Source of the DNA: Antedon bifida
Lineage: Eukaryota; Echinodermata; Crinoidea; Comatulida; Antedonidae
Direction of reading: 5' to 3'
Assembly: GCA_963402885.1 (NCBI GenBank)
Contig: OY727098.1
Location: forward strand, 6,939,001 to 7,003,000
Length of the DNA stretch: 64,000 nucleotides
In this document: in pieces, positions 1-54,700 of the stretch
Layout of the letters: each line of letters begins with the position of its first letter
Numbering within the stretch: position 1 is the stretch's first letter
The notes under the pieces: model-generated
The model's database searches: none
Told to the model about the DNA's origin: nothing
What the model saw: the letters and a program-made list of their open reading frames with translations, nothing else
Translations under genes and position numbers: made by a program

Positions 1-1315
1 GTTGATTTTTTCGACACTATAGTGACCATAGAAAATGGTACACTCAAAACTGACCTATTCCGTAAACCCACGGATAAAAATATGTACCTGCTCCCTAGCA
101 GTTGTCATCCCCGACACTGTACTAAAAACATACCGTACAGTCAAGCATTAAGTATCAGACGTATCTGTTCTTCAGATTTAGATTTTCAGAATCGTACCGA
201 AGAACTAACCGGACATCTCCGGAATAGAAATTACAAGAATGAATACATCGAAACTGCTGTAAAGAAAGCAAAAGATATCCCTTGATGTCAAACACTGACG
301 TACAAACCACGTCAGCCAAATTCGACCAGAGTGCCATTGGTCACAACCTATCACCCTAGGTTGCCTCCATTACGGGCTATTATTGAGAAACATATGCCCA
401 TTCTACAGTCCACAGAACGTCTCAGGACTGATTTTCCGGAACCACCTGCATTTCGTAGACCTCCCAACCTTCGTGATATATTAGTCAGATCCAAATTTAA
501 GAGTGAAATTAACTCTCATGACAGCCAAAATTTGGGCAGTCACCTTTGCGGCAAATCTTGCAAAACCTGTTCATTGGTTGATTCTACTGAAAAATTTAAG
601 AGTAACCAAACTGGCCGCATTTTTCGGATAAGACAATCAAATAATTGTCTAACCAAAAACGTCATTTATCTCATATACTGTAATATTTGTGGTAAACAGT
701 ACGTCGGGGAACCAAAAAACACACTCTGTATGAGAATGACACAACACAGATCAGCTATCAACCTGTAGCCGAACATTTTAATTCAGCTGGTCACTCAATT
801 GCAAATTTTAGAGTTATTGCAATAGACCACGATGTCAAATGGAGCGACAAAACTCGCAAAGACAAAGAAAACCACTGAGAATTACTACTTAAAACCACAA
901 AACCTGTTGAACTTAACATTAGGAGCATACTCCTAGATCGGTAAAATTATTCCACTGACTACCAAAATTTCAATTTCAGTTTCAATATTAACCACCATTT
1001 TAGCTGTTTTTTAGTTCCATTCCAAAATTGTTTATATCTCTACCAAGCTACCTTCTTTGTTTTCTACTCTTATTCAGTCTCCACCCACCATTCACCACCC
1101 TGTCTCCTTTTGTTGTATTTCTTTTATTCCTGTCCACCACCCAGGCTGTTTTACTTTATCGTTTTGATTTAGCTTTTCGCTTTTTTTGTATCTCCATTGA
1201 GATCCAGCCACTGATACCCACAGCATTGTCTTTTTTTCAGTAATTTGTCTTATCCGAAAGCCAGTTTGGTTACTCTTAAATTGTTCAGTAGAATCAACCA
1301 ATGAACAAGTTTTGC
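1..1315 (+). mobile_element. Penelope-like retroelement, broken 3' part
   Basis: The plus strand encodes a fragment of a Penelope-like element ORF that enters from beyond the left edge. About 22-285 resembles the end of the reverse-transcriptase region. About 331-768 contains the FRRPPNLRDILVRSKF linker motif, a CxxxCxxC cluster (CGKSCKTC) and a GIY-YIG-type endonuclease core (VIYLIYCNICGKQYVGE). From about 770 to 960 the coding match decays, and 960-1240 is pyrimidine-rich tail. Around 1250-1314 a short piece matching about 556-627 of the same element lies in inverse orientation. The copy is degenerate and not intact. It sits directly downstream of the lone first exon of a deaminase-like gene, so it may lie in that gene's intron 1 or mark its truncation. 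Confidence 0.8.
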
Positions 1316-1474: not shown

Positions 1475-2248
1475 TTACTACTCCAGTTTGGATTTTATGT
1501 CCATCCTCTGGTGATTCTAACCTCTCTATTATACGCTTATCTTGTGTTGATAAGTCACTTGCATATTTTATATATTGACCGTGGAATGTAAAATATACAC
1601 AAACCCTGGGTGAAACCCACTGCCAAGAAAATGCCTTTAAACGTCTTTGAAGTTGAAAAACAACCTCCTCAGAATTTGGTATATATTGTGAATACAACAT
1701 TATGTCTGGATTATCTATCCTTTGCCAATCTTGGTGCATTTTTTCCATAATAGTATCGCTTAAGAGAGCATCTACCATTGCAGTTGTAAATCCTGTATCA
1801 GTTGCTGTTCCAGTATTAACAACGAAGTAATTTCCAATACGGTTATGTGCAGGGGCTGAAAAGGTTGTCGTTGATTTGGGATCGGGATATAAACAGGAGC
1901 CATCAGATGTATGATAACAGTACACACGAGTTGTGCTGCTATGATCTGTATCGTGGGTATAGTGGTACAAGTAGCTTATCGGGTAATATAACCATCCACT
2001 TCTAGTACTCCCATAGTAGTGGTATCGGTGATTGCGGTCCAGTATCATGATCACCGCAAATTGATGTTTGCCTTCTTTTGCAGAAATTTTAAAGTGTTCA
2101 GAAATTTGAAAGTAAAACTCACGATAATCACCTCTTTGATATGGAGATATATAACTGGAAGAGTGCGTTTCCTCTACCAATAAAAAGACAAAAACAAGAC
2201 ACACAAACACACGAAATGGTCCCATTTTTAGCCACTTTCCCAGCAGTT
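1475..2248 (-). CDS. Third deaminase/SRCR/fibrinogen-like paralogue, first coding exon only
   Basis: This is the first coding exon (ATG at 2225, end of exon 1475, 751 nt, phase 1) of a copy closely matching exon 1 of the gene at 10991-4976. The acceptor at 2248 (cttttag) just upstream of the ATG and the donor A|GTAAGT after the Gly-Val-Val codons are both conserved. It encodes a signal peptide ([20 protein letters not shown]) and a deaminase-like domain without HxE/PCxxC residues: the place of PCxxC reads IPNSEEV. No match to exons 2-9 is visible in 1-1474, which holds a Penelope-like element instead. The rest is either beyond the left edge or lost. The open frame and intact splice sites argue the exon is still under constraint. 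Confidence 0.75.
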
Positions 2249-4975: not shown

Positions 4976-7900
4976 TCAATTAGGATCGGCATAGTCACCT
5001 CCTCCTCTATAGCGTCCACTAAAGATCCCTATTACAGGGTAGATCTTCATTTCAATCGTCTTTAAAGGAGATCTATCGTTCTTCCAGGTGTACCAGTATA
5101 TGACGTCGTTAGGGTAATACGTACTTCGTGCATGGCTACCGAAGTATTTTCCATTAGGATTTGTATTCCCACACAATCCTCCTGTACTAAACCACCATCC
5201 TGCTTTTCTAGTACCAACACAGCTGCTATAACTGAAGTAAAAACAAGCAATTGAAATGATAATAAATTTTATATATTTTTTCTAATTTAAAAAATTAAAT
5301 AAATCATACGCATTAACAGCATGAAACTTTTCATTATAAACTAAATGTCGTTCGAGGATTTGGAGTCAGTGAAGTCGAAAGAGCCGTGAGTTACAACTCT
5401 GGTCACCTCACTTTCTTTTCAATTTATTTTTTATTGGAAGGCAAGCAAGGTAACTATGATCAAGCTACAGCTAACAACAATTAAATTTGTCCTTGTGAAT
5501 TGTAGCATTACGGCATATGAACCAGAAGACTTTAATGAAATGACTTAAAGTAAAATCGTAAGTGTGCTGTAAATTAATAGAATTAAAAGTACAGTAAGTA
5601 TATCTTCGATTAGTTACTTTACCTGTAACCAGCATTAAGCCTATCCTTGGTACTGAATGGCTGATCTACGTTTGAGTTGCCATCGAACGTAAGTGGATCT
5701 GATTCGCCCATAGAATCACCAGCATCTCCTCCAACAAAATCACCAAGACGAAGACAGTACGGACACTCGTGGCTAAACCAAAGAAATAGTTTAATAATAT
5801 GCCAGACGGTTTGCTACTATGAATGATCAGACCCTGCTTCACCAACAAATTACTTAACAACATTTTTGTTTCAATAAGCATTCTGTACAATTATGTTCGA
5901 GTAAATAGTCCAGACAAGGTCCACTATCTGACTTACTTAGTTCTCTGACACGCAAAGTTACTATGTAGTAGTACGGTAACTATTATTATTTACTTGTTTT
6001 AGACAGTATGGTAGTATCCGACAGTTTAGGTAAAGTTGTACATTTTTAAAGAAATGTCCTCCTTTTTTTAAATCGCAACCAATGCATACTGAATTTTAAC
6101 AGAACCTTGCATTTAAAATGGGCATGTGTCACGTTCGTCAAAATAATTGAATTTAAAATTGAGTTACTGAAAATACAGTTTCTAACCTTTCACTTTCCAC
6201 CCTGAAACTCTCGTATATAGCATGTGCTGATTTTCCGTTGAAGTCTGTCATATCAATTCGTAGACGATAAGCTTTGGTGTTTGTTAAGGTGTAAATTTTC
6301 TTCAAGCCTAACCAAAAATTAGCATCTAGATCACCAAAACCTTCTTCATACTCAACCCAATTCTGAAGATAACAACAAATTATATGATAATAATATTTTA
6401 TGTAAATCTTCAAATAGGATACTTTAAAGAGGGAAGCTGAGATTAGTGATATCACTGCTTTCCACTGGGGCAATCTACTCATAACATACATCAAGTTAAG
6501 TCTAAAGAAAACCTTATTCATCAAACTAATTTAACAATTCCAAATTACTATCTAAACTCTAGCATGTAAAAATAAACATGAAAAGAATAGACCTACCTTG
6601 TAGAAATCAACATCATCGTCTTCTCTTCGCTGGATTACTGTCCAACCACCGCCATCTGTATCCATGTCACAGTAAGCTTGGAATCTTGACGAAGACGGGC
6701 CTATTTCATATACACCACTGTCTACATCATCATCATTATTTTCAAAGCCTACATAGTCATTATTCGATCGAAAAGCACTACAGTCAAAGGGCTGTTCTTG
6801 GGATGTGCCTGTGTCTTGTCCACCTGGATCACCTTTGGTGATAACAAACGGAAACTATAATTAGCATACAGTAAATATACGATTTATCTTCGGTTTTATC
6901 AGATGCTAAAATGTTGTTTTGACCATTATGAAAATCTATTAAAATAAGCACAAATTTATAGCACCGCACTTTATCCAAAAATATGTAGATTTATGTAAAT
7001 TAATTATCATCGGCACCGCCCTAATTTGTATTGTAATTTCTTATTTTGAAAGCAACAATCTGATCATTACTACGCGTCATCATGCTGCTTAAATCTCTTC
7101 AATACGTTGTGGTAATTAAGATGTAGTGGTACAGTACTATCATAATCATCATCACTACGCCTTATAAGAACATTACCATATCCATCGAATGTATTGCCAG
7201 CAAAAGGCTCAGTATCTACCACGTCATCATCAGTATCACCATCACCATCGTCATCATTATCAAGACCAGCATATACAGCACATCGTACTGACGCTGCCTC
7301 GCCTGCTCGGCAGTTTGTTCTTCCAAGTCCACTACTTGGACACGAAAAGATAGAACTCTCAGTTCCTTTGCAACCCAAATCATCTAAAATGTATTTTCCA
7401 GATCCTGAACCAAAATGAGATCTTGTCAGAGCTTCTTGTGCAACTTCAAAGTTGAGTTGTCTGCAAGCAACAGTTGCATCCTATGACATTTAAATTAGAG
7501 AAACAATTAGCATAATTTCTGAGGACTGTCATTTGTTAAAAGAAGATTCATCTAAGGAAGTGACCGACATCAACGGAAGTTAATCCAAATTAATTTTGAC
7601 AATTGCCAACGGTTGTGGGAACATTCATTTCTATTTAAGGAAAAACTAGCAGTGCTTTATGACGCGTCGTATATAATGAATAACAGTCATAAAAATAACT
7701 CTGTTTATTTTAATTAAACAAAAGTTAAGTTTTATCTACTCTTTACCTTCAAATCGAAGAAATCGTCACAAACAAGAAGCCAATCTCCGTTATCGTTCCT
7801 GGCTTCTAGACGTCCCTCATAGTAAGCATTACCGTCGACCAGACGAAGGTTTGAAGTTTCGTACATACTTTCTGTTTTTAAAACGAAACAACTTTTACCT

Positions 7901-10900
7901 TTATTTAGCTCTTAACTACCGTACTAATATAAACAAGAAATATCTGAATATACACAGTAACAGCATATGTTTGATACTAACTAAGTACTCAATTAAAAAC
8001 TTAACATTCACTTAAAATATTCATAAATTAATTTTCTATTAGATAAAGAATGTAAAGGGGAATATAATTGTGCATGAAACCAGTAATACAAATTTATATT
8101 TAAAGCAAAAACAATATAGGTAATAATAATTGATAGTACCTACAACTGTAAAAGGGAAATTGCCTCAATACAATCAGGGAGAACAACAACATACAACTGA
8201 TACAACCTACCCTTATAAGTACAATGCCAATCGTAACATCAATTATATTGTATACAATACATTTAAAAAAACATCATAACGGTCTTAAGTGATAAAGTCT
8301 TATAGTGATTATTACCATATCATTATTTGTGTAATTTTTAATGTACTTTACATATTGCTACTCGTTCGGGATACACATATTTGAAATGAATATTAAATAA
8401 AGAATATACCTGGCTCTTCGTCTAAGGTACACAGGAATCCTTGTTTACCCTTATCTGGGCACTGTGAAGGAATAAATTGGTAGCGCGAAATGCCAAACTG
8501 AAAGCTCTCTTCTGTTGTCGCTCCTCTATCATTTAGCGGTGGACCAATGGCACACGATGCAGAATTACATCCCTCAAGACAATATATATACTCCTCCGTA
8601 ATTGTTGTTTTAGAAGCACATGCGCAGTCCATGCCTATATTTCTATCGAGCCAATTCTGCCAACAGGTTCTGTAAGAATGTTTTAAAACATAAAATAGAT
8701 AATTACTAAGTGACAGTATTTCCTTAATTCTTCTCCATTTGGGCCTACTACAATTTTCAGTTAGAATTTAGAGGAATTTATCTTTTTCTAACTATTGTTA
8801 GCTTTATTTGGCTATAATTATCTATTCATGGGGCTTAATTGTCGTAATCGTCAGCGGTAATTTTCGGGTACAATTTTTCTCTTTTTTAAATTTCCGTAAA
8901 CTGTTTGTTGTTTATTCATTCACTGTTGTACCGTAATGTTTGTAGAATACCATGTTTATTAGTTTTAGGCTCATTAACATAATATCATTTGTTATGGATT
9001 AATCATATCATTTAAAAAAGCGATGCCTACCTTTTTTCTTCAACAGAAGCTGACTGGGAGTGACACTGTGCATATATTGAGTTGATAGAATACGCCACCA
9101 TTGCAATTGATGAATCTTCATCACAGCAACAACAAAGTCTGAAGCATTCCGTGTAAGCACGAAGACAATGCATCATGCACGTTTGAGTTGTATCACAGTT
9201 ATCAAATGCTTCTCGGCGAACTCTATTATTTATCTGACAAATACCCGATTTTTTTGGGGATCCAAGATTTTCATCAACTATACCCTTACTCACATAAAAC
9301 GTCGCAATATCAACATTATTCATTATAGGACGCCATGTGTCGATTTGAACATCGGGTAAATATTTACCAATCGTGGTATATGCTACCGAAACTGCTGCTG
9401 ATGCCAATACACCTGTCGTAGGCCTAAAGTTATTGATGATTTCCTGTGAACAGTACTTGCATGGAAATATCCACGTGTAAATAAGAACTTCTGGTATCCA
9501 TGTTGCGCTATACTCACGTGCAAACTCGTTTTTCAAAGCTGTTAAATAATGGCGCATAATACCGTGCTCGGAGTGTTCCCAGTTTCCTGATGAACGGTCA
9601 TAGCCTTCATAACTTCTCTGATTAGAGGACTTTAGATTGTAAACAACGTAGTTTCCTATCCTTCCAGCGGTTGGATTAGACGTTGAGGATTCTGCGTTTA
9701 CTAAACTGTCACTACCATAAATTTTTTCGTTACGGTCACCTGTACGCCAGACATACATATACTTCTTTGGGTCACGGATCCACGCGTTGCGAATATCGGG
9801 GTTCATGAGCAAAAAAACGGCAAACTGGGTATGACCTGATTTTCGTGAATTCTTAAATTCAGCGTGTATTTTTGTGTAGAAGTTGTAATAATAGTCTGAT
9901 GTAGCTGAGAATAAGATGAATACCATTTCATTAATATTTTCTAACATAAAATAATAAGTGTATATCTTGCAACAAGCGCAAAAAGAAACACAAAATAAAT
10001 AAATAAAATCCTTTATCTTTGTTTTTGCTAATTTAAGTTAATTTCAAAGGTTTCAAACATATCAAACATACTCGACCGTAATTCGGAATAATTAACATTT
10101 ATTTATCTAAAAATACTATATTTAAATATGTAAATTGTGTCAACTGCTTGTTTCACTGCATTTACAAATAGGTTTTCGGGAAAGTCAGAATAAAATTATG
10201 CTCTAATCTAAGCATAAAAGAAACGAAATTCAGGTCAACTTACTTACTACTCCAGTTTGGATTTTGTGTCCATATGCTGGTGATTCTAAAGAATCTATTT
10301 TACTCTTATCTTGTTGCGTTAAGTCAGCTGTATACTTTATAGATTGACCGTGGAATGTAAAATAAACACACACCCGGGGTGAACGCCATTGCCAAGAAAA
10401 GACTTTTAAACGTCTCTGAAGTTGAGTAACGACATCATCAGAGTTAGGTATATATTGTGAATACAACATTATGTCTGGATAATCACCGGTCTGCCAGTCT
10501 GCGTGCATCTTTGTCAAAACAGTATCGCTTAAGAGAGCATCAACTATTGCCGTTGAAAATCCCGTGTCAGTTGATGTTCCAGTATTAACCACGAAGTAAT
10601 TTCCAATACGGTTATGTGCAGGGGCTGAAAACGTTGTCGTTGATTGGGGATCGGGATACAAACAGCCAGCATCAGATGTATCAGAACAGTATACACGATT
10701 TGTGCTGTCATGATCTGTATCTTGGGTATAGTGGTACAAGTAACGTACCGGATAATATAACCATCCATCTCTAGTACTCCCATAGTAGTGCTTTCGGTAT
10801 TTGCTGTTCAGGATCATAATAACCGCAAACTGATTATCTGTCTTTTTTGCAACTTTAAAGTGTTCAGAAATGTGAAAATAGAATTCACGATAATCTTCTC

Positions 10901-10991
10901 GTTCATATGAGAATATGTAGCTGGACGAATACGTCTCCTCTACTAATAAACAGCCAAAAAGAAGACACACAAACACACGAAATGGTCCCAT
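4976..10991 (-). CDS. Secreted tandem-deaminase-like / SRCR / fibrinogen-related protein (complete, 1042 aa)
   Basis: Nine coding exons: 10991-10244, 9904-9031, 8669-8410, 7871-7747, 7480-7177, 6832-6597, 6362-6187, 5772-5623, 5231-4976. All junctions are GT/AG, phases agree, and the total is 3129 nt. Domains: signal peptide; deaminase-like domain A (about 25-249) without catalytic residues; deaminase-like domain B (about 250-470) with HSE at 360-362 and PCKYC at 397-401, 34 residues apart, preceded by the strand VLIYTWIF as in AID/APOBEC-like folds; furin-type RVRR at 477-480; Cys-rich region with [12 protein letters not shown] with six Cys split over two exons (about 636-745); acidic Asp-rich linker; fibrinogen C-terminal domain (C788 onward; [23 protein letters not shown]). 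Secretion and the folds are well supported. Deaminase activity is inferred from the motif only, and substrate and role are unknown. An immune recognition/effector role would fit the SRCR and fibrinogen modules. Confidence 0.9.
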
Positions 10992-13530: not shown

Positions 13531-13779
13531 TTAACCGTAATTTGTATAGTCGCCAGTCGTTTGTCCTGTAAAGATTCCTGTTACAGGGTAGATTTTCATT
13601 TCAATCGTTTTTAAAGGAGATCTATCATTTTTCCATGTGTACCAGTAGATGACGTCATTGGGGTAATACGTACTTCGTGCATAACCACTGAAATATTTTC
13701 CATTAGATTTGTATTCCCACACAATCCACCTTTACTGAACCACCATCCTGCTTTTCTAGTGCTCACACAGCTGTTATAA
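13531..13779 (-). pseudogene. Orphan copy of the last (fibrinogen-domain) exon, frameshifted
   Basis: This is a near-identical copy of exon 9 of the two full-length genes, with a usable acceptor (gttgtag at 13780) and the same final reading frame ending at 13531. One base is missing where the others read AATCCTAATGG (here AATCTAATGG, near 13708), which breaks the frame between CGNTN and GKYF. No other exons of a fourth copy surround it. It lies between the 3' end of the 1036-aa gene (15756) and the promoter of the 1042-aa gene. It is most simply a remnant of a deleted or unequally recombined copy. Use as an alternative terminal exon of the upstream gene is possible but would give a truncated domain. 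Confidence 0.8.
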
Positions 13780-15702
13780 CTACAACCAGATAAAACCAAT
13801 AAAATAAAATAAGTCTAATTAGAAAATTTATTTAGTTTTATGGTGAGTGACAACGTTTGACACTATTTGTAGTGAAGCTGTAACTTGGTTGGTTAACATG
13901 CTTGCCTTCCAATCCCAATATCCAGGGTAGGGTTCAGACTACCAGAATGGCAACAATCTATTTCATTTGTGTATTTATTTGGAACAGACACAAAGTAAAT
14001 GTAATATTTTTAGAGCAAAATTATGCAATAGCAATCAATGCATTTAAAGATATTTTGTCCCCCAAAAACATGAAAAATGAAGATTAATTAAATCAGACTT
14101 TGAATAGGTTATTTAGTAGTTTTGATAAATTAAATCACTTCCGTATAAAAAACAAACAATGTTTTCACTTATAAAATGACATAATAAATGGTTAAATTCA
14201 CCCAAAACTCCATTGGCTGGCAGCCAATTTTGCCTAAAATTACAGTTTTTTCAGGTAAATAAATTTTGTTTAGATCCAATTTTTTGCCAAAGTGAATAAC
14301 TATTATGTGACATTAAAATGGCACATTCAACAACAAAAAATGTAAACATTTTTTAGGGGGACAATACAACTGACTGATTTTTTTTTATTAATACTATAGC
14401 ATACACTCGCTTTTCTCGTTGTCTTGTGTACACTTGAGCCTCAGGAAATTAGTACATCGATAGGTATAAAGGAATGAGTATGAGTAATACCTACCTCACG
14501 CATTTCTTACAAACTAACACATTAGGCCTAACTGTTAATTTAGAATAGGTAAGCGATTCTTACCGCCATAAATGCATAGTAATCATAGTAATGATGCATA
14601 TCATGCAACAGCCCTGATGTTTTATGATAATGTATTGTACATATATTCAATTTAAGCTTTTTCGTTTTTTTTTTCGTAATTTTTTTGTATATTTTTTGCG
14701 TTCTGTTAAACTACTGTCATACATTGCATAATTTGCATGTGTCACTGGCTCCAACTTTGGCCAAAAGTGCGAGTCAGCGTTGGCTCCAATGAACCGCATG
14801 CCTAGCTGGCTTGCAGTTTGTCAATACCCGTAACGTGTCATAAGAGCATGTCGTGGGTGCAGAAGTGTACTTTTAATCCCAACCCCCTCCTCCTCTGTCG
14901 CGATGTAAAAGTAGGTCCCTAGTTTAAAACCTTCTCATACAATGACGGTCATAATCGCAACCACCTCCTAGGGGACAGTTCGAATGTAGTTTAAAAGGTT
15001 CCCAGTAGGTCTACAATTTCTTTGATACCCAATATGTATGGATGAATGCGGTACTTGGAGGAAACATTCAAATGTACAGTAGTATCATCTATCAATCGTC
15101 AGATGCGAAGAATAGAAAAACAAATGAAAATTATAGATAGTTTGTTATGTAAATAGTTTTCTTCTTTATTCAAAAGAACAGAAATAGCAGAAATGATGAC
15201 AAATTCATGTGAATAATTATGACAAAAGCTTATGAAAGTATAGGGGCGCTAAAGTAAAGCACGGGAAAAGATTTAAAAAAAAAGGTTGTTTAATATAGTT
15301 GAGAGAGATTATTGACAGAGTTAAGTTCCGTTATATTTTGGGAATAGGTCGGCTTGCCTGTAGTTCATTAACATAGAAAATAATGCATTATTCAATATAT
15401 CTGCCTCAGCAGGCCACCTAAAATTAAAATTGCTTTACGATTTGAATTATTTTTTTCTGGTGGAACTAGCCTTAAAGCCCTCTGGGCTTAGTTATGTTTC
15501 TCCAGCATAAGTGCATTATAATTTAAAAAAAAAACACTGTAGTGTTATTTCACAATGATGTATCTTATGAAAATAAATTGAATTGAATTGAATTGAATTC
15601 CTTGAATCTAAACATTACTGATAACATATATAACAGTTTGATTGTAGAAGAATTATAATATAAATTAACACAGAGAGGCCTATTTAGCTTAAATGCTGAT
15701 AA
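13780..15702. other. Intergenic DNA, no gene seen
   Basis: This is AT-rich spacer downstream of the 1036-aa gene. It contains a retroposon-like tail of TTGAA repeats (about 15576-15600). No coding exon or paralogue remnant was recognised between 13780 and 15702. Confidence 0.45.
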
Positions 15703-15755: not shown

Positions 15756-18700
15756 TTAACGGCCATAGTCTCCGGTTGTTCTTCCACCAAAGATTCCTGC
15801 TACAGGGTAGATCTTCATTTCAATCGTTTTTAAAGGAGATCTATCATTCTTCCATGTGTACCAGTAGATGACGTCATTAGGGTAATACGTACTTCGCGCA
15901 TGGCCACCGAAGTATTTTCCATTAGGATTTGTATTCCCACACAATCCACCTTTACTGAACCACCATCCAGCTTTTCTGGTACTCACACAACTCCTATAAC
16001 TAATACAGTACAAGATAAAGAAAACAATTGGTATTATTTTACGCCGTATTGTGTGCGACAGCATAATTTCGCAATGTATTATTATGTTCATCATTAAAAT
16101 ATTTAAGAAATCTGTTGTAAATAAAATGTATTAATTGATGGAATTAATTCTGGAAGTTACGTCACCTGTTACCAGCGTTAAGCCTATCCTTGGTACTGAA
16201 TGGCTGATCTACGTTTGAGTTGCCATCAAACGTAAATGAATTTGAATCTCCCATTGAATCACCAGCATCTCCTCCTTCAAAATCTCCTAGACGAAGGCAG
16301 TATGGACATTCATGACTGAAAATAATCCAATATATATATATATATATAATAAAGCTGTTGACAACTATTATTAGATAAAAGGGTGCTATTGAAAAAAGAA
16401 GTTATGCATATCTTTGACAAATATAATATTGACAGTGACAATGACAATATACGACCATTTCAAAGGTTTAGAAAATTTAGATGCAGTATAATCTACAGTA
16501 TTATTGTTTAACCTTGAGCTTTCGATCCTGAAACTGCTATATTGAGCATGCGCCGATTTTCCGTTGAAGTCTGTCATATCAATTCGTAGACGATATTCTT
16601 TGTTGTTTGTTAAGACGTAAATTTTCTTCAAGCCTAACCAAAAATTAGCATCTAGATCACCAAAACCTTCTTCATACTCAACCCAATTCTGTTCAAAAGT
16701 ATACATGCAAGATGAAAATGTTGAAAAAACATAGGATTAGTCATTTAGAATATCCAAACATTCTCCAATACAGTTTATGGATTAGGGTTTGTAGTCGAGA
16801 CATAATTCCTAAAATATTTATTTCAAGTTTCAAGTAAAGTGTTTAAGTTCTTGCAAGAAACAAAGTATTTAAAAAATGACAAAAAGACATTTTTACATAC
16901 GTTTATAAACCTAGGGTCAGTCGGATAAAAAAGCCTGCCAAATGAATTCCTCAATTCACAAAATTTCATTTTACCATTTACCTTGTAAAAATCAACATCG
17001 TCGTCTTCTCTTCGCTGGATTACTGTCCAACCACCGCCATCTGTATCCATGTCACAATAAGCTCTAAATCTTGACGATGGACCTATTTCATATACACCAC
17101 TGTATACATCATCATTGGTATCATCATTATTACCATCACCGTCTACATAGTCAATACTCGTGGATCGAAAAGCACTACAGTCAATGGCTTGTTCCTGGGA
17201 TGTACCTGTGTCTTGGTCATCTATGTCACCTTTAAATAACATTTATATAAATTATGTATGTTAATCCAATGATGGTTATGTGTATATATTTTTATTTATC
17301 CGAATCTTATCATAGGCAACGTACTCACTATTAAATGTGTTTTTTTCGTGTTCTATGCTCACAATACAGTATACATTTATTATTATTTTCATACATAGAG
17401 TATACATACAGTAACATTTTTAATTTACTTTTATAGTTTAATTGTAATATTTAAATAATAAATGCTGATAAAATACCGTAATCAGGTTCGAATTCTTCTT
17501 CTACGTCATCATCAGTATCACCATCACCATCATCATCATTATCAAGACCAGCATAAACAGCACATCGTACTGACGCTGCCTCGCCTTCTCGGCAGTTTGT
17601 TCTTCCTAGTCCACTACTCGGACACGAAAAGATAGAACTCTCAGTTCCTCTGCAACCCAAATCATCTAAAATGTATCTTCCAGATCCTGAACCAAAATGA
17701 GATCTTGTCAGAGCTTCTTGTGCAACTTCAAAGTTAAGTTGTCTGCAAGCAACTGTTGCATCCTATGAAATATGAATCAATGATACATTTTTATTTATCC
17801 TTTTTCATTTATTCAAATCATATTTAGTATTCTCTCTTTGACGAACGATAACTAAATTCTAACTCATAAAATAAGTTTCAAAAGTGGTTGTAAAACCACG
17901 CTGTAATTAAGAAACACATTTTCAGATTTGTGTTTACCTTCAAATCAAAGTAATCGTCACACACAAGAAGCCAATCTCCATTTTCGTTCCTGGCTTCTAG
18001 ACGTCCCTCATAGTAAGCATTACCGTCGACCAGACGAAGATCTAATGTTTCGTACATACTTTCTGTTTGTTGAACAAACGATAAATAATATTTATTTCAT
18101 TTTTCTCTCTTAGCTCTATATAATCTTTTTATCTTCTCTCTATTGTTTAATACACTAATTGTTTACCTTTTATCTCTTCTTTATTGAGTGTACACATGAA
18201 TCCATGTTTACCCATGTCTGGACATTGTGATGGAATAAATTGGTAGCGCAAGATATCAACCAGAACGCCCTCTTGCGATGTTCCTTTTTCATTTAGTGGA
18301 GGACCGATGGCATAGAGTTCTTCAGTGACTGCTTCAAGACAGGAAGTATACTCCTCAGTAATTATTGATTTTGAAGCACATGCGCAGTCCATGCCTATAT
18401 TTCTATCAAGCCAATTTCGCCAACATGTTCTGTAAAGAAAATACACTGATATTGTGTTGAATTCAATTCTTGTCATTATTATTATTATTATCAGTGGTAA
18501 GCCAATGGAATGAACTCTACCTTGATTGATAAATTATTAGTCCTTAAACACAGTACGATATATAATATTTGAGTCTTGACTGGACGGGGTAGGCCTTTCC
18601 TCACTGAATATGCATTGAAAATCAAGCTTTTTTTTTTCAATAAATTTTGTTAATATTTTATTTTACCTAAGGACTAGAGTGTTGTTTATTTATAAATTTG

Positions 18701-21022
18701 ATTATACAATTTTTTTCCAATTACTTTTATGTTTTATGTGGTATTATAATATAACTATAACATCAGTCTCACAGTATAGTCAACTGGATAGATTGAAAAT
18801 AGTCTAAAGCAAACTAACCTTTTTTCTTCGATAGAAGCTGACTGGGAGTGGCACTGTGCATATAATGAGTTGATAGAATACGCCACCATTGCAGTTGTTG
18901 AATCTTCTTCACAGCAACAACAAAGTCTGAAACATTCTGTGTTAACACGAAGACATTCCATCATACACGTTTGAGCTGTATCGCAGTTATCAAATGCTTC
19001 TCGACGATATCTATTGCTGTTCAACTTACAAACACCAGATTTCTTGGGCGAATCGAGATTTTCATCAACGATACCTCTGCTTACATAGAACGTTAAGATG
19101 TTGTAATCGTTCATTTCAGGCCGCCAAACATCAATTTGCACATCAGGTAGAAATTTACCAATCGTTGTATAAGCTACTGAAACCGGTGCTGTTGAAAATA
19201 CACCTGTAGTAGGCCTAAAGTTATTGATGATTTCCTGTGAACAGTACTTACATGGAAATATCCACGTGTAAATAAGGACTTCTGGTATCCAAGTTGAGCT
19301 ATATGCGTCGGCAAACTCGTCAGTTAAAGTAGATAAAAAATGGCGCATTACGCCATGCTCGGAATGTTCCCAGTTCCCATTAGAATAGTCATAACCGCCA
19401 ATATCTCTCTGATCTTCACTTTTAAGATTGTATACGACATAATTTCCCATTCTGTTACTTTTTGGACTGGAAGTTGTTTCATCAGCCAGTGATATATGCT
19501 CAGTTCCATATACTCTATCAGTACCTTCATTAGATCTGTAATAATACATATAGTATTCTGGAGAACGAATCCAATGGTTGCGATTTAGGGGATCCATTAA
19601 AAGAAACACTGTAAATTGGGCGCGATTTGGTTTTCTTGATGTCTTAAAATGTTCATGGATTTTGGCATAGAAGTCGTAATAATAGTCTTGTGTAGCTAAG
19701 CATTTGAAAAAGAAGAAATCAAAGTTAATCCCAACTACATGATAACATTTTAATTTAGGTACCGACATAATTTCAAATTATTATTGAAATCGAATAATAG
19801 AACCTGTACTAATAAAGTACTGAAAAGGCTAATCTGTAAGCTTATAAACAATAATGAGATAATTATATATTAGTGTATGATAGTGACATTGATTTATTCG
19901 TGGTTAAATACGGAATTGGCAATATTCAGTGTTGTATTCAAATCAAATATTTCAAAACTCAGAGTCACTTTAACTTTACAGTATGATTGACAGTTGAAAT
20001 AAATTCAATAACATTTGGTAATTTGTTTTTCCTTCCATGCAGTGTGACTCTGATGCTCATTTGTATTTTCAATGATATAATTATAAGAACACGACTTTTA
20101 CAAGGTCTGCTTAAAAGCTTTAGGTTCAGGCCTATAGAACTTGCCTCACTGTTTGCAGTGTATTTACAACAAGGCATAAGTTGCAAATACAAAATATTCA
20201 AATATTAAAAGCTTACATTATAGCTAAAGCATGATAAACGAAAGTATATATAATAATGCAAATCTTTAATGTATACTTACTCAAAACTCCAGTTTGTATG
20301 TGCTGATATCTTGCAGGATTTTGCAGTCGGCCTTCCCTTTTCGTATCAGATACTGTCATTAGGTAAGCACTTTGAATTACATTTCTATGTACAGTAAAAT
20401 ATACACAGACTCTACTTGATCTCCAGTTCCAAGACCAATTCTTTAAATAGTTTTGCATACGGCTCACTAAATTATCAGTAGAAGGAAAGTGGTGGGTATA
20501 TACCATTATGTCTGCGTCACCAGTAGCAAATTCGCTCTGCATAAGTTTTTGAAATTTTTGATCGAACAACGTGTCTACCATGTTATTTGTTAAGGTGTTT
20601 GTTTGTGATGTTCCAGTGTTTACTACAAAGTAATTACCAACACTTGCTTCTGACGGAGCTGACGATTCTACCGATATCGGATCCGGATAATAGCATTCTT
20701 TTGTATAGGTTTCGAGACAGTATTGCCGGCTTGTTATTGTTCTATCATTAGGGTCGGTGTAATGGTATAAGTGATGAAACGGCAAATCAAGCCAACCTTC
20801 TCCCGCGCTTCCTTTATAATTATAACGATCATTTCTGTTAAGAAGCATAATAACTGCAAATTGAGTTTTACCGCTCTTGGCTGCTCCACTAAAATGTGAG
20901 TATATTTTGTAAAAGAATTCACGGTAATCTTTTTCTTCATTTCGACTTATAAATTGAGCTGAATACGCTCTGTCCACAATTGTACAGACGATGAACACAC
21001 CAACTAATGATGAAAACTTCAT
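15756..21022 (-). CDS. Secreted tandem-deaminase-like / SRCR / fibrinogen-related protein (complete, 1036 aa)
   Basis: Nine exons: 21022-20281, 19695-18819, 18429-18167, 18062-17938, 17762-17477, 17229-16982, 16688-16513, 16315-16166, 15999-15756. Phases are identical to the 1042-aa paralogue and the total is 3111 nt. I chose the ATG at 21022 ([21 protein letters not shown], a good signal peptide); an in-frame ATG at 21055 would precede it. Domain A lacks catalytic residues (HFPSTDNL in place of PCxxC). Domain B has HSE at 358-360 and PCKYC at 395-399. RYRR furin-type site at 476-479; Cys-rich region; six-Cys SRCR; short acidic linker; complete fibrinogen domain. The SRCR and fibrinogen parts are almost identical to the 1042-aa paralogue, whereas domain A is strongly diverged. 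Domain assignments are from motifs; enzymatic activity is inferred. Confidence 0.9.
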
Positions 21023-45704: not shown

Positions 45705-48700
45705 TTATTTCTTATAAACAGTTGGATTTTCATACAAATGACAGTGTCCAATGTATGCTGAAATAATCTCATAGCAAAAACTGTACTGGTCCTGAAAAAA
45801 GCATAAAAAAATCGAAATAATGAATGAATATCCTGATAATGAAAACAATATTTTTGTAAATGGTATTTCTAAAATATCTTAATAATATCACTATATATTT
45901 AGTTTAATACTAAATACAGCAATATATTGTATTTAGTTTGTATTGAGCATTACAACAACAAAGTACAGCAATATGTAGGCCTATTATATTTTTTAAAAAG
46001 AAAAATATTAAGATATTAGGCCTATACAAAGTTTCTAAGGGAAAACTAATATAGACACCATTAGCAAAAGAAATATAAAATGGAGGAATTTAAACTAATT
46101 ACAAAGGATGAAACTTCAGTCTATTGTTTGAACATTAAATCTTGGGTAATCTTTGGTAATTAAATCAGAAAAATACGTCGCTGCCTCGAAACACTACTGA
46201 AACTGGACCTAGTGAGAATACTCGAAACTACCACCATTTTCGTAGGCATGCTAAATGCATTGAACTAGACCTTTTCGGTTTGTGAGGACGGTTTACTTAT
46301 ACGGACAAAAATCAAATAAAATAAACTTACAATATTTTGAACTAAACCTGGTCTGTTTGTCCGCATTTTTTTAACCGTTTGAAAGACATCAATGATATTT
46401 TCCAGTTTCATTCTTTCAACAATTTCTATTATTGTGCAGAAGATGCCGGTCCTACCAACACCATTGCTACAAGAAAAAAGATACAAACTAAATTAATTTC
46501 AATGTGTAAAGTGAAAAAGGTGCAATATTGGTATACATCAACGTTATATTGTTAACATACAACTATAATGTTGTGTATGATGAAATACTGCGCCTTGTAA
46601 AGTTTGTGAGAAGATCAATAATGGAGGTCATACCTGCAATGAACAGCTACTAAATTAATTTCAATGTGTAAAGTGAAAAAGGTGCATTATTGGTACATAT
46701 ACATCAACGTTATATTGTTAACATACAACTAAATGTTGTGTATGATGAAATACTGCGCCTTGTAAAGTTTGTGAGAAGATCAATAATGGAGGTCATACCT
46801 GCAATGAACAGCTATTGGATGACTGCCATGATGATATTCATGTTGGTTCTTACCAACCAGCTCCAGCACCTCTAATAAGGTTATGGGATTTTCTGGAATG
46901 TCTTGGCTAGTTGGCCATCCATATACTTGATACATCGTTACTGTAGACATATTATCCTGAACCATAGTTGTAGAAACAAGTATTTTAGCATTTAATTTGT
47001 GTATATTTTAACCTACATCAGTAAGATTAAACTTGACCAAAAGTTATAGAAGTGAAGTACAAACACATATCAAATAGCTTACCGGCTTGTTATTGTTAGT
47101 GATGCTGAATTCTCTAATAGTAATTGCTCCTTTTGATTGATTTGATGTTAAAGTAACAACTAAAGGACCATATTGTTCAGTAGCACCTTCTTCATCCATC
47201 CAATACTTAGCATAAGACTATAAATTAATTATAAATAGGAATATATGAATCAGCTAAGATAATATTTTAATGAAAAAATGGGAAAACATGCTTATAAGTC
47301 TGGTGTCGCGAATCCTGCTGCTGCAGTGTTCGCCACTTTCTCACGCCTCAATTCTCTGTCCAGAGAGCTGATGATGATACTTCTACCAATCATGATCCAA
47401 TCCATTTCATTTGCACATGATGTTGCTTGACGTCCTCGTGATCATTTTTTAGTAGTTATATATAAGCAGCAGCCACTAGGATATAGTAAAACATGTGTTA
47501 TTAGGAGAACATAATATTGAGAAAATATTCAAAATTCTTACCGGATCATTTAAATCCATGTCATTGAGCATGACAACCGAACGAACGTTCCAGTCAAATA
47601 TTAAACGCCACATATCTTCAACAGTGTTAGGTAAAGGCATCTGAGTTGCTACAAACTTATTGTTCTTCTTGTAACCCTGCAATTTTAATAATTAGATGCT
47701 TTTTTATTCTATGTATCACTTTGTGCTGTAGATCTGTATTAACTATATTAATTGTATATGTTTTCTTACATTGACAAAAGACGCATTGATATATGCATTT
47801 CCTCCAGTAGAACTCTGTGTCAGCAAATATGGACGATAACGATCAACTAGAAAAAAAAACACCCCACACCGTTAAGGCCAATTTACACAAACGAGCGGTA
47901 CCGGTAAGCGGAAAACTGCGTAGTTTATCCACGTAGAATCTGTACGGGGGTTTCCGCTCTGCGTTGTGTGTAAATGGTCATAAGGAATAAAATAGATTCT
48001 ACAGTTTTATTATCGTTATCACTCGTCTGTGTAAATTGGCCTTTATGCCTATTAGTTTAGAAAAAGCATAATGGAATTTCTCATTTAGGTCGAAAAAATG
48101 CTGATATAGTTTTTAGAATTGAAAATTACTACCATTATTTGGAAACCAGGCATATGACATTTAGACATTTGTATAATACTACACAAGCTATACAGTAGAG
48201 AGTCGGGTAAGTTTTTAAGTCAACTTAAACGTTGGTATGATTTTCTCCGAAATATACTTACTTGGTACAACGTCAGAGAAACGATTCTTGTTTTCGTTCT
48301 CTGGTAAAAGTGCCGTTTTACAGTGATCCATTGCAGGATGAGGAGTCACAAGTTGTAGAATCTAAAAAAATAACACATTATAAACACAAGTTTCTGGCTT
48401 GCTCAACACAAGTTTATCTTGGTTTTTCCTTTTGATTTTACTTGTTGGGACCTTGCCACTTTCAAAACTCAAAGAAATATATTACCATTTTTTAAGACAC
48501 TTCTTTTTTTTCCAGTCTGTTTTGTTCTCATAAAATATTTGTAAAATAAAAGAAATGTTCTTTTTTTGAAAGAAATGAATGTTAACTTGAATTGAATTGA
48601 AACATTACATTGACTTATTATTCAACCAACCTCAAACTCCTTATTCAAATAAGACGTATTGGTATGCGGATTAATACGCTTTAATTCAGAGAGACGTTCT

Positions 48701-51700
48701 TGGAAATTACTTGCATTCATAGCAGTATCCTCACAAAAGCTGTATTCCAATAGGACATCATAGATAAACACATATTGATCCTGAAAATAATGATAATAAT
48801 ATGATAATAACGTATTAAACAATGTCTTTTATTTTGATCAACTATAGTGTTGTGAGTACGTTGTCTTTTACTAAAAACTTGACCAAAAAATGTAGAAAAA
48901 AGATGTGTATGTTTTTGTTGTTTATTATAAATTACGTGGGTCTACACATACATCTACGTTAATGGATAATAATATTTGTATTATATTTTGTTAACATTTT
49001 GTTATCAACCGAAAAAGTCTACAAAGCATGATTTAGTTGACTACGACTATGACTGTATTTCATTGCATTAAGTTTACTTTTAAAACATGTAATGGGAAGA
49101 TTGTGTATCACTACAATTTATAAAATTATTTTAAACTTACAGGTGTGTACACCATGTTGATTCGTTGGTCTCTTAGTTTACGTACATAGTTGTAAACGTC
49201 AACCTTTTGTTCTTTATCAACCATTTCCATCATACTGTTGATAGCAATAAATGTTCCTGTGCTTCCAACACCGGCACTAAATATTTAAAAAATTAGTTCA
49301 GGAGGATGGTTATACAATTCTATTTCTCGTACATTGATTTATAGTTTTAGTATATTTTTTTTCCATGAAAGCCTTGTAAAATTAATGTAAGGAAAATGGG
49401 TTTAATTGGTATAGGCTTTATAATTTATTTTAACATTTCTTTGATGTTTTAAATGTTATAATATCTATTTTTTTTTATCATGCAAGTGCAACTTGTTATT
49501 AATAAAATAAGTACCTGCAATGAACCAAGAGAGGAGCTGGAGCATCCGTGGCACTGCACTTTACCTCTTTGATAAATCTTAGTACAGCATTCGCAGAAGG
49601 TGGCACGCCCATATCTGGCCAAGTTGTGAAATGAAATTGCTTGATGCATCTGTAGTCAACTTCCTGAATAGAAATACATAGTAGAGTTTATGCCTGAACC
49701 TTGTAATATATTCTTAGATGTTTGGACATCGTTTATATACGGTAAATCAGCAGACTTCATTACAAACTATATGCATGTATGATCAGAAAAAAATACAGAT
49801 ATACAAATAAAATCTATAGAACTGTTTATTTGATTACAAAGATAAATATATAGATTTAAGTCCCAACATATAATAGGATTAGAAAAACATAAATAAAAAT
49901 ACGAATACAACGCCACGCAGTTTTTCCCAGTAGACAAGCCCTAATTTACTTAATGAAATAATAATAATAATAATGAAATACTTGATCGTTAGGGGCTTTT
50001 ACTATTTAAAAACATATATTAATTGACTTATGATTTACTCTGGTAAATTAACATTTTTATCATAAGATCAGTATGATTAGTATACAATATCGTTACGATA
50101 CATACGTCTTTCCAAACTTTCAAGTACCGAATCTTGTGGTCTGCATAGCCTTCAATGGCCTCTAGAAGAACGTTAAATTCTCCATACTCAGCTACAGGAC
50201 CCATGTTATCTTGCCAATATTTCTCACAGACTTTCTGAAAGTAACAAACAGTTCGAAAGGTCTGCAACACTGTATCGATTGAGAGGATTTGCTAATGATT
50301 TTACATACATATGTTGATAGATTCGATGTAATTAATGATTGACTAAGAGTATTTACTGATTTCTGAATTGTTTTTTAATCACAAACCACTGTAGCAGAAT
50401 AACGCATTTACTTTGGTGACTCAGTGTCTTTTATTTTGTATTTTATTTTATAAATTAATTGATAATTTTCATTAAAAAGGCCTAAAAGTATTTGTCTTGA
50501 TTTTAAATCTTATTTTACTATACATGATTCATAGCAACTAAAAAACAAAATAAAAATCGATCTTCAATCAGAAGAGATGATTACCTTATCCGATTCAATA
50601 TTACTCAACATCACAATAGTTGCGATATTCTCTTGCCAAATCAAACGCCAAAAGTCAATCAACGAAACCTTATTAGGTCCTGAAATTAAATAGTACAAAT
50701 AGCAATACTGGTTAATTGAGGTTCCAGTTTATGTTTAAATAATTTACACTACATGCAACAATATAAGATTAAGATAACATTAAGAATTTAAAATATGTTT
50801 TAATTATGAAATATAAAAGCAAAATATCTATTTATAATGAATACTAATAATTTTCACCATATTTTAAAACTTACCCTGACTTGCAATGTAAACATTATTC
50901 CGCTTGTATCCCTAGAAAAATAAACAATTGAAATGGTTAGTACAGTTTCAATATACTGACAGAGGCAAGACATTCTGGTATATTAATGGTTATGCCAATA
51001 ATAAATTCATATATTGTAACCTTTCGAAAAAGATGTTAAGCAATTGAAAATGGTCAACATTATGTTGAGCATGCTTTATCTTGGACATTTACAAGCAAAG
51101 AATTTGCAAAGTTTACTGAAGTCCTTACTTTGGAAAGAGAGTGTTTGTAACACATTACTTACATGTACATAGCAAGCATTAATGTATCCAGATTCTGTGC
51201 CATTTCCTTCAAGAGTGACTCTCGAGTGATCATCTTTAAGTAAAAAGTTCAACAAAAGTAGATGTTTACAAGAGCAATATACTGTATCTCTGGTAGATTT
51301 TCCTATTAGTCATCCCATTCCTCCTTTCCCAACCAACACACTACGTAGCAGTGAAAAAAATATTAAACATATATACTTACAGGCAAAAATATTTTTAAAT
51401 CGATTCTTTGAGCTGTTTGATGGTTGTGAAGCTACTTCCCATGGATGAGTCTGTCCTTTTGGAAGAGTCTATTACAATAAAACAACCAGAAATAAAGAAA
51501 CAGAAGATACAGATATAGGTTAGGCCTACTATACTGATAATAGATAAGTTTATTGCATTACAATCATGTAAAAAAAAGACAAAAAACAACATACCCCATA
51601 TTCTTTTAGAAGACCATCCAGTAGATTCAATCGCTTCTTGGCAACAAAATCTGGGAGATCATTCATGCCAATTGGTTGTATGGTTTTAACGTTCTCATAC

Positions 51701-54700
51701 AATCTTTCGTCAAAGTTTTCAGATACTTCGGGAATAACTGATAAGTACTTAGCTTCCAATTCTATAGCCTCATACATTGATTCTTCAATTGGTTTTCGTA
51801 AACATTCGTAGGATTGGCTATTTTCTGTCATATAATATAATTAAAGTGAATGTGCAGACCTGATGTGATTGTCATTATAGTTATTTTCATTATACCAATG
51901 AAATATTTTTGTCGATTATTCTACAGTACACAGCATCAACAAATGTCTTGATCTTGATATACCACGTCTGTATCAACTACCCATGACCATAAAAGTATTT
52001 TAAGAGTGAAGTGGTATTTATAAAAAGGTAACATTTACTACAATTGACCTTTTTAGTTAGATATAAAAATAGAACGTAATTACAAAATAGATCTTGAAAT
52101 TACTTGTGTGATCATAATACAATAAGACATAAGCTATGCAAAATAAAACAAAAGGAGCTTCTAAAACTGCAACTGAAGTAAACCTATGTTGAATCTTGCT
52201 ACACCATAATAATAATATTAAAATAGTTATTACAGTGACACATTCGGGAACTAGCAAAGTCAACATCTTAAGCCGTAAAGTGTTAAAAGGTGTTTTGCCC
52301 CTTACTCGTTTCATGAATGTGTATTTTTTGGAGTTTCCCTAAACAGGAGTGTCCCCGGGTAAAAGGATGGATTCTATTTTATTATTGGGCCGTATGATCC
52401 TATGAGTATGCAACTATTCATTCTGTTGTTGCCTGTACCTGAAATATCATTTGTTGAATCATTTCTATTTCCTGCGTATTGCATATATGTATCTTCCTTT
52501 TTAGAAGACCGTTTGCGATTTCTGAAATTAAAAATGTCATTCTGATTTGAGATGATACAAAAAACATATAACAATTTAGGAAATATTATAATCATACAGT
52601 AAAAACTTTCAAATTCATAATAATATTATGAATTTGAAAGTTTTTATAAATTATAACAAGAACTATTTCTTACTAAAAGCGCTTCTCGCTTATTGAAAAA
52701 TGTTTTTTATTTCAAATGTTTTTGAATGTGTCATTTTATTGTCACATAATAGTTATTTTACCTGAAAAAATGTAATTTAAAGCAACAAATACTTAAATTG
52801 TCTGTCAGACAATGTTTTTTGGGCTTCTTTTCTCTTTTTATATGTGAATAAATATTTTTTTTGTTACAGAAGTGAATACTCAATTTCTGTCACTTTAGTT
52901 AATTTTATTGCTAAGGTCAAGTCTGGGGGTTACTTCATCACCCTAGATATTTCAAGTGTGAAGTATCCTATTACAAGCACAAACTTTAATGGACTGTTTC
53001 GATAATAAATATCTGACAGTGAATATACCAACTGGAATCAATAAATTATAGTGGAGTTTCCATTTTCGCAAAACTGTCGTCCATAGAACTATAACTGCTG
53101 CTTGCTTTAGCTTCTACTGACGTAGCGGGCTAGAGCAGCAGCGTGAAAAATCAATCAATATCAGTAGACCAATGAGACTATTTCGTACAAGTCAATCAAA
53201 TATTTTTAGTGAAAACATTTTCCTTTGGATTCGATTAGTTGAGATATTTCATTGATAAACGACGACTGGTCTCCTGGGTTACACACCAAGAGCATCTAGC
53301 AAGTGGCATCGTAACAACACACAACAATTGACGAAGTCTAGCTCACAGATTGACGAAACTGTCTCGAAAGGTTAGTTATTTTACTGGTTTACAATTAATG
53401 AACTATATCTCAAAATATGTATAGCCATACAATATCTACAGTGTTTTGTGTATTTACATTATATGCGATTTTCTGCTCATAAACATCATAAGATATTTTA
53501 TTCTAATTATTTCTCATAATAATGTTCATTAAGAGCAAAAAGTGTAGCTAATTATTATCCAACAACAATCCTTACCGAATAATGCAGAAAATCAAAATAA
53601 CAGCAATACAAAGGATAAATAGAATACCAATAACAGCACCAATTATTGCCGAATTTGACTTATCTGTAATTGTAAACAGTATGGATATCATGATGAAAAT
53701 AGTATTAAAGATAGTTTGTAAAATATGATATATGCATTTATAAAATAGGTCTATAAGCAATGTTGTATAGAATAAACCACACCTTTAATAGCTATTGTCG
53801 AGAAACTCCAATTTCCAGCTCCAGCGCCATTGACAACTCTAGCCTGTTTAATAAACGAGAAAGTGTCGGCATAAATTCAATACTGTAAACTGTACTATAT
53901 AATTGTAAACAAAACGGTGTCAATTTTTAAAGCAAGAAAACTAATGCATGGAAAACAATATAATACATCATACATCATGTTCTGGATAAACATTTTACAA
54001 ACAAGACCGGAAAGAAACTTTAAGCCTTTACCAACTACTGTATGTTTTATATTTGCAGGATCATGCAAATGATAACAATGCAATCGTTGACATTATGTTC
54101 GATTTTGATATAACTATATGTTTTCCCTTTCCAAATTTACGTGTGCCACACATAAAGGTATGAATATGAATATGTATATGTAAATTGAATAACAAATAAT
54201 TTCTGTAATGATTGCTTCTCACACAGTTGACCTTTTGTATTTGAACTTAATTGAAAGATATAATATTTGGTAGATAATAACAAACCTATAAATTAAATAT
54301 TTTAATAATCAATGGGATAAGGAGACACAATTTGAAATAATTATGTATTAATTATTGGAGAAATGAAGAAGGAATTTATAGAAGAACAGAAAGCGCAATG
54401 ATAAAAAAGATATGTGGTGTTAAGCTGGCAGAAAGGATGAACACAAAGGAGCTCACGAAACATATTGATCTGGAATGTAGATCGTGGAAGTTGTTATGAG
54501 GAGTAGCTTGAGATGGATTGGATATATTCTTTTTTTTTCTTTTTCGTGGGGCGACCATCAGTAACAAATAAAATTACAATTCTTTTTTTTAAATACTGTT
54601 TGAAATATCAATAAAATAACTATAAAATATTACTGTTACTACAGTACATTTGTAAAGAACACTTAATAACAAGCTTACATATACAGTAGCTATTAAGATA

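Follow-up and report, generated by a model that had tools for sequence, protein, structure and literature searches.

A predicted secreted protein of the feather star Antedon bifida that joins an AID/APOBEC-like domain to SRCR and fibrinogen-related domains

The window analysed here is a stretch of 64,000 nucleotides from the feather star Antedon bifida (assembly GCA_963402885.1, contig OY727098.1, forward-strand positions 6,939,001 to 7,003,000), and the element in question is a gene on its minus strand, hereafter gene A, whose predicted product is a secreted protein that combines an AID/APOBEC-like domain with SRCR and fibrinogen-related domains. An earlier interpretation made from the letters of the window alone (the sequence-only reading) had proposed such a protein, and this proposal has held for an echinoderm, the closest proteins found being those of the crinoid Antedon mediterranea. 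In the following sections, the gene, its family and its domains are described and the possible functions are weighed.

Gene A and its family

Gene A (minus strand, 10991-4976) consists of nine exons that join into one frame of 1042 residues plus stop, with GT-AG borders at 8/8 introns and consistent exon phases, just as the sequence-only reading had placed nine phase-consistent exons at 4976-10991. That a deaminase fold is here part of a secreted fusion protein can be stated with high confidence. The features of the gene are as follows.

10991-10244, 9904-9031, 8669-8410, 7871-7747, 7480-7177, minus: exons 1-5 (frame joining, GT-AG introns)
6832-6597, 6362-6187, 5772-5623, 5231-4976, minus: exons 6-9 (frame joining, GT-AG introns)
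10926..10991, minus: predicted signal peptide, residues 1-22 (hydropathy 3.17 over 12 residues)
10245..10925, minus: domain A, degenerate deaminase-like, residues 23-249 (profile and tblastn match to domain B)
9243..9904, minus: domain B, AID/APOBEC-like with full motif, residues 250-470 (Pfam, structure model, structure searches)
9567..9575, minus: HSE, residues 360-362, predicted zinc ligand and catalytic glutamate (motif)
9450..9464, minus: PCKYC, residues 397-401, predicted zinc cysteines (sole cysteines of domain B)
9195..9239, minus: C472...RVRR...C486, putative furin-type site flanked by two cysteines (sequence motif)
9031..9194, minus: Cys-rich region, first part (CLxxxxECxxxCCCC), also in the C8 relatives, continuing into exon 3
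8410..8669, minus: exon 3, remainder of the Cys-rich region, to about residue 630 (frame joining)
7177..7871, minus: exons 4 and 5, SRCR domain (residues 640-736) and acidic linker (Pfam SRCR, E 6.3e-22)
4976..6832, minus: exons 6-9, fibrinogen C-terminal domain, residues 806-1023 (Pfam Fibrinogen_C, E 1e-52)

The N-terminus has a hydrophobic core of the signal-peptide type, in line with the signal peptide originally proposed, and secretion is predicted on this basis (hydropathy only). Past the N-terminus, no 19-residue window of the gene A protein exceeds a mean hydropathy of 1.14, and because a membrane-like segment is accordingly lacking by this measure, the alternative of a membrane receptor was dropped. 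The possibility that two fragments of different genes had been joined was likewise rejected, since exon order and phases repeat in 3/3 genes of the family and NCBI gene models join the same domains (see below).

Gene A is one of three neighbouring tandem genes (A, B and C) with identical exon order and phases (3/3) on the contig of the window, which is referred to as C11, while C8 denotes another contig of the same genome. Further family members within the window are listed below.

15756..21022, minus: gene B, complete tandem paralogue, nine exons, 1036 residues, phases and motifs as in gene A
1475..2225, minus: gene C, exon 1 (its other eight exons fall outside the window, to the left)
13540..13790, minus: orphan last-exon fragment of the gene A family with a frame break, likely a relic

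The gene C piece (2225-1475) was at one point considered a stray exon, a notion that was dropped as the genome sequence gives the complete gene (C11:6932546-6941225, 1049 residues, phases and motifs as in gene A). A genome search with exon 2 resulted in nine matches, of which three are the full copies on C11 and the other six, all partial, lie on C8. When NCBI proteins were searched with full-length gene A, three relatives were found, all of them annotated as 'uncharacterized protein [Antedon mediterranea]': P0001 (1042 residues) is 98.3% identical to gene A from end to end, with 18 differing positions, gene B shares 95.0% identity with P0003 (762 residues, without the N-terminal part), and P0002 (1048 residues) is 88.0% identical to gene C, the lower value for this last pair pointing either to faster change or to proteins that are not true orthologues. 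The A. mediterranea models are independent gene predictions, and P0001 and P0002 contain the same domains as gene A from end to end, which upholds, at the level of gene prediction, the earlier claim that one protein extends across all domains. Genes A-C and P0001-P0003 together make up the six C11-type proteins, from two assemblies, that are compared below. Exon 2 alone retrieved no homologue by a method that is poorly suited to partial queries (the full-length query succeeded), and a profile search with the C8 relatives added, which scored the 7995 candidates with the most words in common, returned the same three proteins only. NCBIfam gave a match for 0/4 proteins, and none was found among phage records.

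Two observations on the family may be added. Between genes A and B, the synonymous divergence (dS) is 1.55 in domain A and decreases to 0.11 in SRCR, a pattern suggestive of homogenised 3' exons in this pair, perhaps through gene conversion, and of diverging 5' exons. N-x-S/T sequons are absent from five of the six proteins and occur once in the sixth, as compared to shuffle means of 6.6-9.4; this scarcity is odd for a secreted protein, was noticed post hoc and among related sequences, and is not clearly seen in the C8 relatives.

The deaminase-like domains

In domain B, HSE is followed after 34 residues by PCKYC, which confirms the spacing given by the sequence-only reading and fits both the motif of the AID/APOBEC superfamily and the pattern H[AVS]E-x(24-36)-PCxxC published for invertebrate deaminases (PMC5956068, accessible part of the text); only 2/20,000 shuffles of the whole gene A protein contain this pattern. 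The H, E, P, C, and C of the motif are kept in 6/6 proteins, each of which has exactly two cysteines in domain B, both within PCKYC (P0003 lacks the domain start), the total cysteine counts being 37, 34, and 34 in genes A, B, and C. Across these three genes, 130/217 columns of domain B are invariant and 87/217 variable, the ratio of nonsynonymous (dN) to synonymous divergence amounts to 0.28 (A-B), 0.40 (A-C), and 0.29 (B-C), and between genes A and B dN is 0.118 in the motif stretch (residues 355-420) as compared to 0.427 in residues 250-325.

When the trimmed domain B was searched against Pfam, genes A and B gave five matches each, 5/5 of them to deaminase families (NAD1, APOBEC2, SNAD4, dCMP_cyt_deam_1, and APOBEC_N) and all under the cut-off, with NAD1 (PF18778) reaching E-values of 0.00091 and 0.0017, respectively; for gene C, four of five matches were to deaminase families, the fifth being GH101_N (E 0.13). 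NAD1 is the best profile match, over HSE...PCKYC, in 3/3 genes, and the related families converge on residues 74-176 of the trimmed domain in all three paralogues, while three shuffled controls yielded one unrelated match and none to a deaminase. A structure model of domain B (AlphaFold on a 5-sequence alignment) has a strand-helix order that fits the deaminase fold. In a Foldseek search with this model, 50/50 matches listed are AID/APOBEC chains and none is a CDA or dCMP deaminase; among the rows listed by VIA-align, 46/50 are deaminases by title, two of these (8wlw and 5xkp) by inference, and AID/APOBEC and small-molecule deaminases appear mixed. As judged from profiles and motif, domain B very probably adopts an AID/APOBEC-like deaminase fold.

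The sequence-only reading had also spoken of two related deaminase-like domains. Their relatedness is well borne out, as the profiles of domains A and B align with a probability of 97.2 and an E-value of 3.5e-11 (hhalign) and tblastn connects the two at E-values of 4e-9 to 1e-5. The designation as a double deaminase, however, could not be retained, since only domain B is motif-complete: in each of genes A-C, HxE and PCxxC are both missing from domain A, which also gives no Pfam match and evolves faster than domain B (dN 0.547, A-B). By these comparisons, it is a homologous, degenerate copy of domain B without the zinc motif.

A second cluster of diverged relatives is located at C8:26288001-26338000, where four long open reading frames (ORFs) of the family encode 591, 591 (identical), 537, and 520 residues and all carry the CLxxxxECxxxCCCC signature (4/4). 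The two identical ORFs (C8:26298255-26300027 and C8:26305755-26307527) lie 7,500 bases apart and stem either from duplication in the very recent past or from an artefact of the assembly. SRCR and fibrinogen pieces follow 3' on the same strand in 3/4 ORFs (the second with a single fibrinogen piece) and none was detected behind the fourth, these domain orders being ordered tblastn pieces and not spliced models. The first C8 domain aligns with domain B of C11, PCSSC falling on PCKYC (probability 96.4, E 1.1e-9; 96.2 in a second run), and the second C8 domain aligns with the first (probability 91.0, E 1.1e-6) and does not match C11 domains A and B (probabilities of 13.8 and 2.6). Among the three distinct C8 proteins, two have PCxxC and one LCVSC, always in the first domain; HxE is missing from both domains in 3/3, and Pfam assigns no family to any of them (one was entered without its first 69 residues). 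Because the C8 cluster repeats the domain order without the complete motif, the deaminase-SRCR-fibrinogen architecture probably predates the C11 tandem and appears to have been kept with and without the complete motif.

The recognition half and the cysteine loop

The SRCR domain and the full fibrinogen C-terminal domain that had been read from the sequence were both recovered by Pfam, with 78.2 bits (cut-off 26.1) and 179.6 bits (cut-off 22), respectively, and the SRCR domain holds six cysteines at 662-736. The closest solved chains to the fibrinogen domain of gene A are tenascin-R, ANGPTL2, and FIBCD1, and its DRLNA aligns with DRDSD of FIBCD1 and DRDN of tenascin-R. As DRLNA stands in place of DRDSD, a position that we take to be the calcium site beside the ligand pocket in fibrinogen-related lectins (ficolin, tachylectin, and FIBCD1 type), calcium-dependent binding of the classical lectin kind is uncertain. 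The genome contains at least 163 fibrinogen-domain matches, counted per exon and with clusters on C7, C8, C9, C11, and C14, and the module is thus common in this genome. SRCR immune proteins, for their part, are known as diversified families.

The deaminase half is separated from the recognition half by a loop (gene A residues 472-486) in which RxRR is flanked by two cysteines in 6/6 C11-type proteins. This loop at the junction is a new element beyond the sequence-only reading, as are the tandem paralogues and the second cluster. RVRR, RYRR, and RSRR occur at this one place, that is, the second residue is variable and the basic residues are constant, as would be expected for a furin-type site; the loop of P0003 shows the sequence variant EEFDN. 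In the C8 relatives, RVRR stands right after a cysteine in 2/3 distinct proteins and is absent from the third. The loop may be nicked by a furin-type protease, and the resulting chains would be tied by the disulfide. In A-B toxins, a protease-nicked site lies inside a disulfide loop that joins the effector and binding halves, and the putative loop described here resembles theirs in layout at the level of sequence. Domain order, tandem copies, conserved motif, and RxRR between cysteines can all be read directly from the genes.

Outside the family, similar ORF pieces that by eye look like one mobile element lie near both clusters (window 286-768, plus; C8:26321538-26322482, plus), and exons at 46265-63255 of the window (minus) resemble by eye a receptor with Ig/EGF/FN3 and tyrosine phosphatase domains.

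Possible functions and their place among known systems

The explanation that we tentatively favour is a secreted base deaminase that is aimed by its own recognition modules and serves as an immune effector. It is moderately probable that domain B is an active base deaminase and, given such activity, targeting by the C-terminal modules would be likely. Zinc would be held by H360, C398, and C401 of domain B, and with the help of E362 this domain would deaminate cytosines of single-stranded DNA or RNA, domain A being a non-catalytic partner; one non-catalytic partner domain is likewise found in double-domain APOBEC3s. A furin-type protease may nick the RxRR loop, leaving the deaminase chain disulfide-tied to the recognition chain, whose SRCR and fibrinogen-like domains would bind a target surface and bring the base deaminase onto microbial nucleic acid or that of infected cells. 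The least certain step is substrate access, which may involve nucleic acid outside cells or from damaged cells, or else uptake and release by reduction. A true A-B weapon, in which the deaminase half is cut from the SRCR/fibrinogen half at the furin-type site and held by the disulfide until reduced in the target, appears rather unlikely.

The chief rival is a pseudoenzyme, that is, a soluble recognition or matrix protein that performs no deamination and in which the deaminase fold would have survived for binding or assembly, its partners being nucleic acid, glycans, or subunits. Although we consider it somewhat unlikely, it has to be taken seriously because of the C8 cluster, whose proteins lack HxE in 3/3 cases, retain PCxxC in two (LCVSC in one), and match no Pfam family: as these long ORFs persist without HxE, this active site is not indispensable to the architecture. 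The loss of HxE and PCxxC from domain A in 3/3 genes points in the same direction, whereas the retention of five motif residues in 6/6 C11-type proteins while 87/217 columns vary, together with the low dN of residues 355-420 relative to 250-325, argues against a pseudoenzyme. Alternatively, the protein could be an extracellular deaminase of free nucleosides or nucleotides that tunes purine/pyrimidine signals in the body fluid or starves microbes. This is in keeping with the predicted secretion, with the match of gene A to the small-molecule family dCMP_cyt_deam_1 (E 0.015), and with the acidic domain B of gene B (isoelectric point 5.5, as compared to the basic 8.7-8.9 in genes A and C), owing to which charge-based nucleic-acid binding is not common to all genes. 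It is nonetheless improbable, since 4/5 Pfam matches of gene A are of the AID/APOBEC type, with NAD1 best, and the Foldseek matches listed (50) are AID/APOBEC and not CDA/dCMP deaminases, even if VIA-align mixes both kinds.

That domain B is no deaminase but an unrelated secreted domain, with HSE and PCKYC present by coincidence or serving as a metal or disulfide site of a different kind, is very improbable, although several results are in its favour. All deaminase profile scores stayed under their cut-offs: NAD1 reached 19.8, 18.9, and 19.5 bits and SNAD4 16.1, 16.4, and 14.4 bits in genes A, B, and C (cut-off 27 bits for each), no other SNAD model matched, and genes A-C are therefore assigned to neither family. 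With the untrimmed exon 2 of gene A, NAD1 was the sole match in Pfam, and the full-length protein matched no deaminase family. The model of domain B is weak, with a predicted local distance difference test (pLDDT) score of 52.8 (40.3 for a single-sequence model of exon 2), the Foldseek matches listed have E-values of at least 0.027 and low TM-scores, PDB searches by sequence and profile gave no deaminase chain, and with a profile built from the domain Bs of all three genes no PDB chain came up at E-values of 10 or less. PC is, moreover, preceded by TWIF and not by the SWS of classical AID/APOBECs. All these results, along with the acidity of domain B in gene B and the persistence of the C8 proteins, weigh against an active AID/APOBEC-like deaminase. 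The absence of any deaminase is, on the other hand, difficult to reconcile with the agreement of related families on one stretch (74-176) in three paralogues, with the fitting strand-helix order and the concordance of 50/50 Foldseek matches listed, and with a motif spacing within the published pattern. The AID/APOBEC fold that had been proposed for residues 250-470 is supported by the structure matches, within the limits of a pLDDT of 52.8 and a best E-value of 0.027, and by the profile search, in which the trimmed domain B matched five deaminase families and no others in genes A and B, yet all under cut-off; the sequence-only interpretation as a whole is partly supported.

Among known systems, as described in the accessible parts of the cited papers, SNADs are like genes A-C in combining a signal peptide with an AID/APOBEC-like zinc motif; their delivery to infected cells or extracellular parasites has been proposed, and the papers state that neither activity nor role is known (PMC8201067, PMC11004436). 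No fused recognition domains are described for them there, 'fibrinogen' occurring 0 times in PMC11004436, whereas genes A-C add a degenerate second domain, the RxRR cysteine loop, SRCR, and a fibrinogen-like domain. NAD1 is reported to occur in fishes, amphibians, lizards, and marsupials (PMC8201067). The pattern H[AVS]E-x(24-36)-PCxxC of domain B is shared by sea urchin SpAIDL and brachiopod LaAIDL deaminases, at least some of which are active on polynucleotides, and LaAIDL1 comprises two tandem deaminase domains; SpAIDL1 and 4a, in contrast, measure 193-194 residues, and the terms 'signal peptide', 'fibrinogen', and 'scavenger' do not appear in the paper on them, in which rpoB and KanR mutator assays served to examine the sea urchin and brachiopod enzymes (PMC5956068). 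Invertebrate fibrinogen-related proteins (FREPs) are, like genes A-C, diversified families with a fibrinogen-like recognition domain, which is however paired with one or two immunoglobulin superfamily (IgSF) domains and not with a deaminase (PMC7588048, accessible part). Fungal CCTX2, an AB-toxin-like chimerolectin, similarly represents a defence protein with effector and recognition halves on one chain (PMC13324453, accessible part); genes A-C differ in folds and organism, and their effector half is a deaminase-like domain. No description of the deaminase-SRCR-fibrinogen architecture was found among the Creative Commons-licensed PMC papers surveyed.

With a deaminase prefused to recognition domains and a possible release site, a single molecule would suffice to test the question of delivery: its binding half would reveal the target and its loop the trigger, and the chemistry could be probed by mutating one glutamate. 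If the A-B weapon were true, microbes, parasites, or infected cells would receive a mutator enzyme from the feather star, and this would supply a delivery route of the kind proposed for secreted AID/APOBEC-like deaminases. Should the protein be inactive, a deaminase fold would clearly have been put to new use in binding, within a genome that holds both motif-complete and eroded copies. A fusion of this kind would also place a DNA/RNA-editing fold among the secreted recognition proteins of crinoids, which would bear on the entry of editing enzymes into animal immunity.

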